Source of the DNA: Phascolarctobacterium sp.
GTDB lineage: Bacteria; Bacillota; Negativicutes; Acidaminococcales; Acidaminococcaceae
Assembly (NCBI RefSeq): GCF_030531065.1
Contig: NZ_JAUNOQ010000001.1
Span: 1-64,000, forward strand
Direction of reading: 5' to 3'
Length of the DNA stretch: 64,000 nt
This document shows positions 9,002-13,263 of this stretch, one piece after another. Each line of letters begins with the position of its first letter. The first letter of the stretch is position 1. The translations under genes were made by a program, and so were the position numbers. The notes beneath the pieces were generated by a model, which did not search any database, was not told where the DNA came from, and worked only from the letters and a program-made list of their open reading frames with translations.

Positions 9002-9030
9002 TTTACAAAATCGCCGACTGGCTTTATAAT
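9002..9030 (+). promoter_or_regulatory. Promoter of the glutamine synthetase leader
   Basis: TTTACA (9002-9007), a 17-bp spacer and TATAAT (9025-9030). Transcription should start near 9037, giving a leader of about 275 nt before glnN. Confidence 0.75.
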
Positions 9031-9039
9031 AAGCCCATG

Positions 9040-9091
9040 AAGCAACAATGCCGTTGTTGGATGTCAATCCAAACTCCATTGTTGCTTTTTT
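9040..9091 (+). promoter_or_regulatory. Leader terminator with a competing hairpin (candidate attenuator)
   Basis: An 11-bp stem, 9040-9050 with 9077-9087, is followed by a run of T and would terminate the transcript some 50 nt after its start. An alternative hairpin, CAACAA (9043-9048) with TTGTTG (9054-9059), uses the terminator's 5' arm and so cannot coexist with it. A small hairpin TTGGA/TCCAA (9057-9072) with a six-base loop is nested inside. This is the architecture of conditional antitermination ahead of glutamine synthetase. The controlling factor is unknown. An independent small RNA ending here is the alternative. Confidence 0.55.
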
Positions 9092-9312
9092 GTTTTAGGT
9101 TTCGCAAGAGAAAATTTTTTCCTTGCGGGATAGTGCAACGAAGCACCGGGGTTGCGTAAAGCGGCCTGCGGTGCTTTCTCATTTTCGCAGGGCTAGAGAG
9201 AAAAACTTGCGAAAGCACCAAGCCAATATTATTTTTTTGAGAGGGGCTTACGTGAGTAAACCCAAAAGCGCTTCTGGTTTTTAAAACGAGAGAGATTAGG
9301 GAGGTTTTACGT
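9092..9312 (+). promoter_or_regulatory. Structured glnN leader with alternative pairings
   Basis: CGCAAG (9103-9108) can pair with CTTGCG at 9122-9127 or with the second CTTGCG at 9206-9211. GGTGCT (9170-9175) can pair with AGCACC at 9142-9147 or at 9214-9219. In addition GCAAC (9135-9139) pairs with GTTGC (9151-9155), which with the first AGCACC pairing gives an H-type pseudoknot. Two duplicated complementary arms are what a switching RNA would show. I do not recognise a known riboswitch class. The ribosome binding site GGGAGG lies about 10 bp before the start codon. Confidence 0.45.
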
Positions 9313-11400
9313 ATGAACGACGTACCGAAATTATTTGGCAGCTTAGTATTTAACGAAACCGTTATGAAAGACCGTCTGCCGACCGTAACTTACAAAGCCT
9401 ACAAGGCTGCGGTATTAGAGGGCAGACCTTTAAATTTGGAAATCGCTAATATCATCGCTAACGCAATGAAGGACTGGGCCTTGGAGCACGGCTGCACGCA
9501 CTTTACCCATTGGTTCCAGCCCATGACCGGCATCACCGCCGAAAAGCACGAAAGCTTTATTTCTCCGACCGCCGAAGGCCGCGTTATCATGGACTTTTCC
9601 GGCAAGGAATTGATTCAGGGCGAGCCCGACGCCTCCAGCTTCCCGTCCGGCGGCCTGCGCGCTACCTTTGAAGCCCGCGGCTATACCGCCTGGGACCCGA
9701 CGTCCTACGCTTTCGTAAAAGATAATTGCTTGTGCATCCCGACGGCGTTCTGCTCTTACACGGGCGAAGTGCTGGATAAAAAGACGCCGCTTTTGCGCTC
9801 CATGAACGCAGTAAGCAAAGCGTCCTGCAAGATTTTGAAGCTCTTCGGTATCGATACCGTGCGCGTTAACAGCACCGTCGGTCCCGAACAGGAATACTTC
9901 CTGGTAGATAAAAAAATGTGGGAAAAACGCAAGGATCTGGTTTACTGCGGACGCACCTTGTTCGGCGCAAAATCTCCGCGCGGCCAGGAGCTGGAAGACC
10001 ATTACTTCGGCATCATTAAACAAAGAGTTTTGGCCTTTATGAAGGATTTGGACGACGAATTGTGGAAGCTGGGTGTGCTTGCTAAAACCGAGCATAACGA
10101 GGTTGCTCCGGCGCAGCACGAATTGGCGCCCATCTTCTCCTCCACTAACGTAGCGTCCGACCACAACCAGCTGATGATGGAATTTATGAAGCGCGTAGCG
10201 CTGCGTCACGGTCTGGTTTGCCTGCTGCATGAAAAACCCTTTGAAGGCGTGAACGGCAGCGGCAAGCATAACAACTGGTCCTTGAGTACGGAAGAAGGCA
10301 TGAACCTTTTGGATCCCGGCAAGGAGCCTTACAAGAACCTGCGCTTTTTGACCTTCCTGGCCGCAATTTTGAAAGCGGTCGACGAATACCAGGATCTGCT
10401 GCGCGTATCCGTAGCGAGCGCCGGCAACGACCATCGCTTGGGCGCTAACGAAGCGCCTCCGGCTATCGTTTCCGTTTTCCTGGGCACGGAATTGACCGCA
10501 GTTTTGGAAGCTATCGCCGCCGATAAGGTTTACACCGGCAACCCCGAAGCCTTTATGAAAATCAGCGACGACACCATTCCCGCATTGGTAAAAGACAATA
10601 CCGATAGAAACCGTACTTCTCCCTTCGCTTTCACCGGCAATAAATTTGAATTCCGTATGCTGGGCAGCATGTTCTCCATTTCCGGTCCCAACATCGTTTT
10701 GAACACCATCGTCGCCGAAGAGTTGGACGGCTTCGTCGACAGGCTGGCGAACGCTCCCGATTTGGAAGCCGCAGTTTACGATTTGGTAAAAGAAACTTAC
10801 CTGGCGCATAAGCGCATCGTTTTCAACGGCAACGGCTACACCGACGAATGGGTGGAAGAAGCCGCTAAGCGCGGCCTGCTGAATCTCAAATCCACGCCGG
10901 AAGCTATTCCGTACATGGGCGCTCCGAAAAATGTGGCGCTGTTCACGAAGCATAATATCTTTACCGAAGCGGAAGTTAAATCCCGTGTGGAGATTTTGCT
11001 GGAAAACTACAGCACGACAATTTCCATCGAAGCCGCTACTGCGCTGGATATGTTCCACAAGGATATTTTGCCGGCAGTCAGCGCTTATACCAACGATTTG
11101 ACTAAAGCCGCTTTGGATAAAAAAGCCGCTGGCATCAGCGCAGGCTTTGAAGCGGAGCTGGCAGATAAGTTGAGCAAACTGAGCGCAGAAATGTACGCCG
11201 CTTCCGTGAAACTGGAAAAGGATATGCACGAAGCAGCAGCTATCGAGTGTAGCAAGAAGCAGGCTACTTTCTATCATGACGTAGTATTGGAGGATATGGG
11301 CGCGCTGCGCAGCGCGGTCGATGCGGCCGAAGCTTTGACCGGCGGCAAATATCTGGATTATCCGACCTACGGCGAGCTGCTCTTCGGCGTCAACGAGTAA
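9313..11400 (+). CDS. glnN: Glutamine synthetase type III
   Basis: A 695-residue protein with the length and motifs of the GSIII family (about 700 residues, against 450 for GSI). Features include HWFQPMTGITAEKHESF (near residue 63), PSGGLRATFEARGYTAWDP (about 110), NSTVGPEQEYF (about 190), HNEVAPAQHELAP (about 265), GSGKHNNWS (about 315) and ANEAPPAIVSVFLG (about 378). It makes glutamine from glutamate, ammonia and ATP in the cytoplasm. The next gene is an ammonium transporter fused to PII, so the two form a nitrogen assimilation pair, although each has its own terminator. Expression is probably conditional through the leader at 9037-9312. No GSI or glutamate synthase is visible in the window. 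Confidence 0.97.
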   Translation: MNDVPKLFGSLVFNETVMKDRLPTVTYKAYKAAVLEGRPLNLEIANIIANAMKDWALEHGCTHFTHWFQPMTGITAEKHESFISPTAEGRVIMDFSGKELIQGEPDASSFPSGGLRATFEARGYTAWDPTSYAFVKDNCLCIPTAFCSYTGEVLDKKTPLLRSMNAVSKASCKILKLFGIDTVRVNSTVGPEQEYFLVDKKMWEKRKDLVYCGRTLFGAKSPRGQELEDHYFGIIKQRVLAFMKDLDDELWKLGVLAKTEHNEVAPAQHELAPIFSSTNVASDHNQLMMEFMKRVALRHGLVCLLHEKPFEGVNGSGKHNNWSLSTEEGMNLLDPGKEPYKNLRFLTFLAAILKAVDEYQDLLRVSVASAGNDHRLGANEAPPAIVSVFLGTELTAVLEAIAADKVYTGNPEAFMKISDDTIPALVKDNTDRNRTSPFAFTGNKFEFRMLGSMFSISGPNIVLNTIVAEELDGFVDRLANAPDLEAAVYDLVKETYLAHKRIVFNGNGYTDEWVEEAAKRGLLNLKSTPEAIPYMGAPKNVALFTKHNIFTEAEVKSRVEILLENYSTTISIEAATALDMFHKDILPAVSAYTNDLTKAALDKKAAGISAGFEAELADKLSKLSAEMYAASVKLEKDMHEAAAIECSKKQATFYHDVVLEDMGALRSAVDAAEALTGGKYLDYPTYGELLFGVNE

Positions 11401-11447
11401 GACGCTCGCGGCGAGCGCAACTTAGCTACATTGTTTTGATACACAAC

Positions 11448-11483
11448 GAGGTGTATCCCGCAAGGGGTACGCCTCTTTCTTTT
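11448..11483 (+). terminator. glnN terminator
   Basis: GAGGTGTATCCC (11448-11459) and GGGGTACGCCTC (11464-11475) form a stem followed by TTTCTTTT. Confidence 0.8.
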
Positions 11484-11589
11484 AGCTTTTCATTTGCGAA
11501 CACTAAAGAGTGCCTAAAAAATAACATGCCGCAGGCATGAAAGATATAAAATATCCATATTTGTATTTTGTTTTGAGGGGTGACTAAGA

Positions 11590-13263
11590 ATGGATAAATT
11601 TGCAGCAACCGACACCATATGGGTACTCATTGGTGCTTTCCTTGTATTTTCCATGCAGCCTGGCTTCGCAATGGTAGAAACAGGCTTTACCAGAGCTAAG
11701 AACGCGGCCAATATCGTTATGAAAAACGTTATGGACATGTGCTTGGGCTCTATCGTCTTTTGGATTATCGGCTTTGGACTGATGTTCGGCACGGATATCG
11801 GCGGCTTCATCGGCACGCCGGACTTTTTCGTACAGGGCGACTATGGCGCCAGCTATCCGTCCACCGTATACTTTATTTTCCAGACCATGTTCTGCGCTAC
11901 GGCGGCGACTATCGTTTCGGGCGCTATGGCCGAGCGTACTAATTTCCTCGTCTATTGCATCTACAGCGTTGTTATCAGCGCCTTTATTTATCCCATCAGC
12001 GGCCACTGGATTTGGGGCGGCGGCTGGCTGGCGCAAATGGGCTTCCATGATTTCGCCGGGTCCACGGCGGTACATATGGTCGGCGGCGTCGCTTCCTTAA
12101 TCGGCGCGCGCATGATTGGCGCTCGTATCGGCAAATATAATGAAGACGGCAGCGTTAACGCTATTCCGGGACACAGCATTCCGCTCGGCGCTTTGGGCGT
12201 GTTCCTGCTGTGGTTCGGCTGGTTCGGCTTCAACGGCGCTTCCACCGTCTGCGCTACGGGCGACGACGTGCTGACTTCCATCGGTTCGATTTTCATTACT
12301 ACTAATATGGCTGCCGCAGCGGGCGCTACGGCGACGATGATTTACACCTGGGTTCGTTATGGCAAGCCCGATGTTTCCATGACGCTGAACGGCGTGCTGG
12401 CCGGTTTGGTCGCTATCACCGCGGGCTGCGATATGGTAAGCCCTGCCGGAGCTTTGATTATCGGCTTGGCCGCAGGCGTGCTGGTAGTTGCTTCCGTCGA
12501 ATTTTTTGACCATACCTTGAAAATCGACGATCCTGTCGGCGCAATTTCCGTACATGGCGTGTGCGGCGCTTTCGGCACTATCGCAACCGGCCTTTTCGCG
12601 TTGGACGGCGGCCTGCTGTATGGCGGCGGCACGGATTTCCTGCTCATTCAAATTCTTGGCGTTGTAGTCGTAGCGGTTTACGTAGCGATTGCGATGACCA
12701 TCATCTTTAAAGTTTTGGATAAAATCTTCGGTCTGCGCGTCAGCGAAGAAGAAGAAATCAAGGGCTTGGATATGGAAGAACACGGTCTGCTCAGCAGCTA
12801 TGCCGACTTCATGCCCACAGCTACCGTTGAAGCTCCTGTCGCTGCTTATACCGCTCCCGCAGCAGTAAAAACTCCGGCTGTTAAACCTGAAGGCGCGGCT
12901 AAGCTGAGCAAGGTGGTTATCATTACTTCGCAGAACCGCTTTGAAGCTTTGAAAACTGCGCTGGATAAGTTGGGCATCACCGGCATGACCGTAACTAAGG
13001 TTTTGGGTTACGGCATTCAAAAGGGCCAGACGGAAATGTACCGCGGCGCTGAAATAGCTGCGCATCTGTTGCCCAAAGTTAAAGTAGAAATGATTGTGTC
13101 CGCTATTCCTGTGGCTGACGTAGTCAACACCGCTAAAGCAGTGCTGTACACTGGTAAATACGGCGACGGCAAGATTTTTGTTTATGACGTCGAGGACGTT
13201 GTGAAGATCCGCACCGGTGAAACCGGCTTCGACGCTTTGCAGGACAAACCTATTGAAGGTTAA
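11590..13263 (+). CDS. amt: Ammonium transporter fused to a PII signalling domain
   Basis: A 557-residue fusion. Residues 1 to about 395 are an Amt/Mep/Rh channel with the pore histidines visible in STAVHMVGG and SVHGVCGAFG and the signature DFAGSTAVHM. After an Ala/Pro-rich linker (about 410-440) comes a complete PII (GlnB/GlnK) domain of about 110 residues, containing GITGMTVTKVLGYGIQKGQ, EMYRGAE, LPKVKVEMIV and TGKYGDGKIFVYDVEDVVKIRTGE. In the T-loop, Tyr46 (E. coli numbering) is kept, but the uridylylation site Tyr51 is replaced by Ile (RGAEI). Free GlnK normally plugs Amt trimers in a nucleotide- and 2-oxoglutarate-dependent way; here the plug is tethered. Upstream is glnN; downstream the terminator has been invaded by an integrated element. 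Confidence 0.95.
   Translation: MDKFAATDTIWVLIGAFLVFSMQPGFAMVETGFTRAKNAANIVMKNVMDMCLGSIVFWIIGFGLMFGTDIGGFIGTPDFFVQGDYGASYPSTVYFIFQTMFCATAATIVSGAMAERTNFLVYCIYSVVISAFIYPISGHWIWGGGWLAQMGFHDFAGSTAVHMVGGVASLIGARMIGARIGKYNEDGSVNAIPGHSIPLGALGVFLLWFGWFGFNGASTVCATGDDVLTSIGSIFITTNMAAAAGATATMIYTWVRYGKPDVSMTLNGVLAGLVAITAGCDMVSPAGALIIGLAAGVLVVASVEFFDHTLKIDDPVGAISVHGVCGAFGTIATGLFALDGGLLYGGGTDFLLIQILGVVVVAVYVAIAMTIIFKVLDKIFGLRVSEEEEIKGLDMEEHGLLSSYADFMPTATVEAPVAAYTAPAAVKTPAVKPEGAAKLSKVVIITSQNRFEALKTALDKLGITGMTVTKVLGYGIQKGQTEMYRGAEIAAHLLPKVKVEMIVSAIPVADVVNTAKAVLYTGKYGDGKIFVYDVEDVVKIRTGETGFDALQDKPIEG

Follow-up and report, generated by a model that had tools for sequence, protein, structure and literature searches.

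Candidate single-hexaloop ANTAR attenuators in the glnN-amtB region of a Phascolarctobacterium genome

We found that the leader of glnN, in a 2.37 Mb Phascolarctobacterium genome (G000), carries a conserved element that, judged by sequence comparison, is most likely a single-hexaloop variant of the ANTAR target and not a riboswitch. The window, that is the whole 64,000-nucleotide stretch analysed, would carry three transcription attenuators in the glnN-amtB region, here called T1, T2 and T3. At each of them the nascent RNA would fold by default into an intrinsic terminator, and the alternative fold would be a small hairpin that takes up part of the terminator 5′ arm and has a hexaloop with A at position 1 and G at position 4 (A1/G4). 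An activated ANTAR regulator, probably the sole REC-ANTAR protein of G000 with its PdtaS-type kinase, would bind the hexaloop. The bound hairpin would be held and RNA polymerase would read on into glnN and then into amtB, presumably under nitrogen demand. There would be one hexaloop per terminator, that of T1 right at the start of the transcript. We regard this explanation, taken as a whole, as probable. Sequence comparison shows the alternative folds, the identity of the loop, the covariation and the co-occurrence with the regulator; binding by the protein, antitermination, the signal, the direction of control and a role of T2 like that of T1 and T3 are inferred. The nitrogen signal is a guess, made because of the genes concerned and because of NitR as it appears in the available text of PMC6316151.

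Results

The glnN leader and its proposed duplicated arms

The promoter and the two genes of the region are:

9002..9030, plus strand: promoter TTTACA-17-TATAAT of the glnN transcript (11 of 12 consensus matches; the promoter-proximal position of the unit is conserved)
9313..11400, plus strand: glnN, type III glutamine synthetase (GSIII; PF12437 at 6e-78, PF18318, PF00120)
11590..13263, plus strand: amtB fused to a P-II domain, downstream of T3 (PF00909 at 2e-128, PF00543 at 6e-24)

The original prediction had placed a ligand- or protein-controlled riboregulator with duplicated pairing arms at 9092-9230, unlike any known riboswitch class. This range folds at -55.4 kcal/mol (z -5.2 against shuffles; z -5.0 for 9030-9320). 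Just upstream of it, and more widely conserved, are the promoter and T1 (9002-9096), which the prediction leaves out; it also overlooks the hexaloop, the feature that points to the likely partner protein. The unlikeness to known classes was borne out, as no Rfam family matched over gathering. Searched with E up to 10, the glnN leader gave two matches, both far below gathering; eight loci of relatives gave none over gathering, and in the whole window only three tRNAs reached the gathering score. A blastn search of the leader against phages returned only two short chance matches.

The words that make up the proposed arms are all located as claimed: CTTGCG at 9122 and 9206, AGCACC at 9142 and 9214, CGCAAG at 9103, GGTGCT at 9170, GCAAC at 9135 and GTTGC at 9151. 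The pairings are possible, and for the isolated stretch of G000 the long-range pairing is predicted. We checked their conservation in G000 and three relatives with the element (G001, G002 and G003; figures are given in the order G000 to G003). The T2 stem (9142-9147/9170-9175) forms 6 of 6 pairs in all four genomes. However, the second AGCACC (9214-9219) forms 6, 5, 2 and 2 of 6 pairs with GGTGCT, G002 and G003 being gapped there, and the long-range helix 9103-9108/9206-9211 forms 6, 4, 4 and 4 of 6. The pseudoknot 9135-9139/9151-9155 forms 5, 5, 4 and 4 of 5 pairs, partly G-U, so that the full pairing stands in G000 and G001 and one pair is missing in the other two. Local hairpins occupy the same region:

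9100..9130, plus strand: hairpin P0 in the T1-T2 interval, formed by CGCAAG and the first CTTGCG (-12.3 kcal/mol)
9183..9214, plus strand: hairpin H3, formed locally with the 3′ copy of CTTGCG

In H3 the 3′ copy (9206-9214) pairs with 9183-9190 by 7 of 7 pairs in 4 of 4 genomes, with sequence changes, and at the position of P0 the relatives have a hairpin of their own with a different sequence.

Thus the 5′ set of arms is kept in 4 of 4 genomes while the second set is particular to G000. Since the 3′ copies are not kept in the relatives, the duplicated-arm switch is specific to G000; as proposed, with its arms, pseudoknot and long-range fold, it is not conserved even among the four genomes of one genus in which this stretch occurs. 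The conserved core is limited to the hexaloop hairpin and T2, and the three relatives have no conserved aptamer core, the pseudoknot being partly kept. We therefore consider a metabolite riboswitch or pseudoknot switch made from the CTTGCG and AGCACC arms to be very improbable. What survives of the proposed riboregulator is control by a protein, which is the best reading; nothing indicates a small-molecule ligand.

T1, a terminator at the transcript start

Mutually exclusive RNA folds, as had been proposed for the glnN leader, are supported. Those of T1 are:

9043..9056, plus strand: hexaloop hairpin 1, CAAC[AAUGCC]GUUG, loop 9047-9052 with A1 and G4 (from the sequence and from stem covariation in the wide set)
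9040..9096, plus strand: terminator T1, stem 9040-9050/9077-9087 and U tract (-20.2 kcal/mol)

The 5′ arm of T1 consists of the 5′ arm and loop of hexaloop hairpin 1, so the two folds exclude each other. In an alignment of 25 family units (A1) the terminator arms covary, with 34 cells changed on both sides; none of 500 shuffles scored as high. Of the 28 loci screened for A1, L050 and L051 lack a pattern match and were added by hand, and three were excluded: L057 and L058, which duplicate L056, and L060, which almost does. L068-L072, where glnN is without a promoter-proximal leader of its own, were kept out of the screen. The alignment is the basis of model R1, which scores the T1 of the window at E 2.7e-11 and, at a threshold of E 0.1, finds matches in 45 of 100 genomes. 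A simple terminator scan confined to loops of 3-8 picked up neither T1 nor T2.

Because A1 was selected by a pattern that demands CAACNNNGNNGTTG, the invariance of CAAC/GUUG and of G4 within it carries no weight. The tests free of this bias are those on C[AANGNN]G units for the stem and the scans of 80 and 109 leaders for the loop.

Hexaloop units across glnN leaders

The leader set comprised 109 glnN leaders from Negativicutes and Clostridia (80 loci, 22 loci and 7 outgroups), 107 of them distinct by their last 200 nt. A promoter-proximal hexaloop with a purine at position 1 and G at position 4, followed by a T run, was present in 83 of the 109; 26 were without a unit, and 78 units were unique. 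When all hexaloop hairpins in the 109 leaders were counted by loop positions 1 and 4, AG was found 84 times, AC and AA 6 times each and AT 3 times. A separate scan of 80 of those leaders gave AG 64 times, followed by GG with 10.

For the stem we collected C[AANGNN]G with a promoter and a T run, pairing not being required, which gave 74 units. Of these, 69, 71 and 66 form stem pairs 2, 3 and 4, respectively, where shuffling gives 50.0, 58.7 and 44.7 (0 of 1000 for each pair). When A, C or T was asked for at loop position 4 as a control, 18, 1 and 4 units were obtained.

These data bear on two further explanations. The repeat at the transcript start could be a DNA operator, the terminators being constitutive, and the start of T1 at 7-14 nt past the -10 box in most leaders is an operator-like position. 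However, covariation links the 5′ arm to a distant 3′ arm that precedes a U tract, the hexaloop stem covaries across the 74 units, and T3 shares the design 2.4 kb downstream of the promoter; we hold an operator to be highly unlikely. The second explanation is attenuation by a leader peptide. In the window sequence a short frame can be read from the ATG at 9037, with CAA CAA glutamine codons across T1, but this ATG is absent in most relatives and follows the likely start point too closely to leave space for a ribosome binding site. We rejected the leader peptide, whose start codon is not conserved, as barely credible.

The ANTAR regulator remains the likely partner of the T1 hairpin, since an A1/G4 hexaloop that excludes a terminator is the described ANTAR target. 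In the available text of PMC3369931 and PMC8934654 this target has two hexaloops with a constrained linker, both needed for antitermination. We found a second A1/G4 hexaloop no more than 15 nt downstream in 4 of 83 units; shuffles give 4.0, so there is no excess. Upstream one occurs in 3 of 83, and in each of these the inner hairpin had been picked by the script as the main hairpin; L192 is the one plausible natural hexaloop pair among the three. The hairpin mostly begins 7-14 nt past the -10 box, too close for another hairpin to fit upstream of it. A two-hexaloop reading of the glnN units was rejected, the second loop being at chance frequency, and the units are set apart from the dual-hexaloop family on these two grounds, as a single-hexaloop variant whose mode of action is most likely similar.

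T3, between glnN and amtB

Scanning both window strands with a descriptor for hexaloop hairpins that overlap a terminator, we obtained 62 candidates. Of these, 7 are AG, and T1, T2 and T3 belong to the 7. T3 is located behind glnN:

11438..11457, plus strand: hexaloop hairpin 3, GAUACAC[AACGAG]GUGUAUC, loop 11445-11450 (from the family alignment; covarying stem)
11448..11482, plus strand: terminator T3, stem 11448-11459/11464-11475 and U tract (-22.8 kcal/mol; from the descriptor scan)

T3 overlaps hexaloop 3 from loop position 4 onwards and lies 2.4 kb downstream of the promoter. At this site 17 of 17 distinct family sequences have a hexaloop with a purine at position 1 (A in 14, G in 3) and G at position 4, and in the aligned sequences the terminator begins within the hexaloop. 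The hexaloop stem covaries among the 17 (0 of 500 shuffles); the alignment tests demanded a closing C-G pair. For L059 the script chose another hairpin, and its AAAGTG hexaloop was entered by hand. A hairpin of this kind was sought behind glnN in three further loci, L062, L064 and L067 (all genus g14), and was absent.

T2, a weaker candidate for a third unit

Within the range of the original prediction lies a third candidate, which together with its hexaloop hairpin spans 9133-9186:

9133..9146, plus strand: hexaloop hairpin 2, GUGC[AACGAA]GCAC, loop 9137-9142 with A1 and G4 (16-nt core identical in 4 genomes)
9141..9186, plus strand: terminator-like T2, stem 9141-9148/9169-9176, inner helix and U-rich tail (-23.4 kcal/mol)

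T2 starts inside hexaloop 2, and we read it as a third unit mainly because its hairpin geometry equals that of T3. The closing C-G pair and the AANG loop agree with the wide set of 78 unique units. Of 59 family genomes, 4 share the core GUGC[AACGAA]GCACCG without change; they belong to one genus and have it before glnN, and the other 55 lack it. Since the core is invariant, the hexaloop stem can show no covariation. The T2 terminator has -17.8 to -20.5 kcal/mol in the three relatives and hexaloop hairpin 2 only -4.8; because the terminator is far more stable, the hairpin would prevail only with a protein bound to it, as in described ANTAR systems.

The reading of T2 is weaker than that of T1 or T3, since it comes from four genomes of one genus only. 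Alternatively, T1 and T3 would be ANTAR units and T2 an ordinary structured spacer or plain terminator-like hairpin whose A1/G4 loop is coincidental. Besides this confinement to four genomes, the tail UCUCAUUUU is only moderately to weakly U-rich, and A1/G4 alone is weak proof because 7 of the 62 window candidates are AG, which is about 1 in 9 by chance. Against coincidence, the 16-nt core is unchanged in the four genomes while the flanks have diverged, its closing pair, loop and geometry are those of the wide set and of T3, and tandem units are found elsewhere. Such tandems within one glnN leader occur in L182 and L186, from distant Clostridia, among the 80 leaders; L178 and L212 were also flagged, their second unit being doubtful. 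A coincidental T2 is in our view unlikely but a serious contender, and we favour the reading in which T2 would work like T1 and T3.

The ANTAR regulator and its co-occurrence with T1-type units

The ANTAR domain (PF03861) was found in 82 of 100 genomes and occurs in a single copy in G000, on contig C3:

G000:C3:62005-62586 (L116:3006-3587): REC-ANTAR gene, receiver plus ANTAR (PF03861)

The gene adjoins that of a kinase with GAF_PdtaS and HisKA_2 domains, and the pair is encoded away from glnN. The best PDB match of the protein is 1s8n (8e-57), titled putative antiterminator, which we take to be PdtaR; EutV (6wsh) matches at 1e-42. The likeness to PdtaS/PdtaR is at the protein level, in the two kinase domains and the regulator match, whereas the targets here would be the glnN-amtB terminators. 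The protein is identical to EutV at the RNA contacts Arg142, Lys149, Glu160, Tyr164 and Met172, taken from the available text of PMC8934654 with a numbering offset of 2 that was deduced from the alignment.

Of the 59 family genomes, 46 have ANTAR and 13 do not. R1 matched 38 of the former and 1 of the latter with an E value of 1e-3 or lower, and glnN was present in 40 and 1, respectively; 8 of the 46 had no R1 match at E 1e-3. The exception is G013, an assembly of 400 contigs, which has R1 and glnN and in which no ANTAR was found. Outside the family 1 of 41 genomes (G039) had a strong R1 match, on both strands at one place, which is probably a plain terminator. The co-occurrence is suggestive; the genomes being related, the table carries no probability value, and it is partly phylogenetic because the 12 genomes that lack both ANTAR and a strong R1 match come from two genera.

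In genus g17 a second, REC-less ANTAR gene stands divergent beside glnN (L115 3200-3784, and L114), resembling the NitR arrangement, and the glnN leader there has AAGGC[AAUGGC]GUCUU before a terminator.

Discussion

The glnN units resemble the dual-hexaloop targets (EutV/eut, NasR/nasF and AmiR) in the A1/G4 hexaloop, the short stem, the nitrogen genes, the hairpin that overlaps or excludes an intrinsic terminator and the ANTAR protein encoded in the genome. As far as the available text of PMC3369931 and PMC8934654 describes those targets, the glnN units differ in having one hexaloop per terminator, not two across a linker. They also tolerate G at loop position 1. In T1 the hexaloop lies at the transcript start, and the terminator arm is the 5′ arm and loop of the hairpin, not its 3′ arm. 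In the portions available, Walshe 2022 (PMC8934654) has the ANTAR dimer hold one hexaloop at a time and redefines the minimal site as a single hexaloop; it leaves open how far single hexaloops are used, the eut system requiring both hairpins for antitermination. The glnN units, which occupy a defined place in many genomes, are obvious candidates for one-hexaloop terminators and make this a directly testable question. They would also explain the control of GSIII and the ammonium transporter in gut Acidaminococcaceae and of GSIII in many Clostridia.

Within the same limits of the source, the searches of Ramesh 2012 (PMC3369931) included glutamine synthetase genes. We found no description of the single-hexaloop variant in the open-access literature on ANTAR, glnN/GSIII and Negativicutes, the hit tables of Ramesh 2012 not being covered. 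NitR of Clostridium saccharobutylicum, as presented in the available text of PMC6316151, is analogous in that ANTAR antitermination of glutamine synthetase genes responds to nitrogen limitation. Here the proposed regulator is a REC-ANTAR protein paired with a PdtaS-like kinase, its gene lies at a distance from glnN, and the comparison is one of regulators, not of target RNAs.

We lean slightly towards a broader view, in which a large class of single-hexaloop ANTAR units occupies the first dozens of nucleotides of glnN transcripts in Negativicutes and Clostridia, does without the recruiting first hairpin that has been regarded as obligatory, can be stacked in series in a single leader and also gates an undescribed small RNA.

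Other genes and a small RNA behind T1-type units

R1 also matched upstream of glmS in g14 genomes (L111, L112 and L113), upstream of an aminotransferase gene in L113, and upstream of a non-coding RNA that is conserved, measures about 170 nt and has a terminator of its own (G000:C2:125983-126106, minus strand, in this genome, and in others). This RNA had no Rfam match over gathering and is, as far as we could find, an undescribed small RNA. Model R2, built for it, reached an E value of 1e-5 or lower in 10 of 59 family genomes, and every match directly follows a T1-type unit. The seeds of R2 were RNAs that R1 had located, among them those of 9 of the 10 genomes, which leaves only G014 as an independent case. 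MAFFT misplaces the variable 3′ parts of alignments A4 and A5, and A4 was used for a rough model only and A5 for the hexaloop stem only.

The loci of the RNA are L103 2406-2620 (minus strand, G000:C2), L104-L108, L110, L117, L128 and L131. Its core is GCGGCCAAAUGAGGGGA with a closing stem near CGCGUG/CACGCG, directly behind the T1-type ANTAR unit. In L113 (3117-14862, G030:C21) aminotransferase, glmS, glnN and carAB-like genes, the last named by eye, are clustered with the kinase/REC-ANTAR pair, and two T1-type units lie among the genes.

A further motif, UGAGGGG, was compared in L044-L060. It occurs in 13 of 21 family glnN leaders, 3′ of glnN in 11 of 21, often near the start of amtB, and also in the non-coding RNA behind the T1-type unit. 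In the window UGAGGGG itself is at 11574-11580 and the variant GAGAGGGG at 9239-9246, where a small structure follows:

9241..9262, plus strand: GAGGGG and then a small hairpin, 5′ of the glnN ribosome binding site (aligned in 4 genomes)

The motif may be a shared contact site for a protein or RNA near ribosome binding sites. Elsewhere in the window, 1171-1424 and 2194-2447 form a 254-nt direct repeat with 93% identity, 1023 nt apart; in either copy there is a hexaloop hairpin, ATGC[AGCGGG]GCGT, followed by a T-rich tail.
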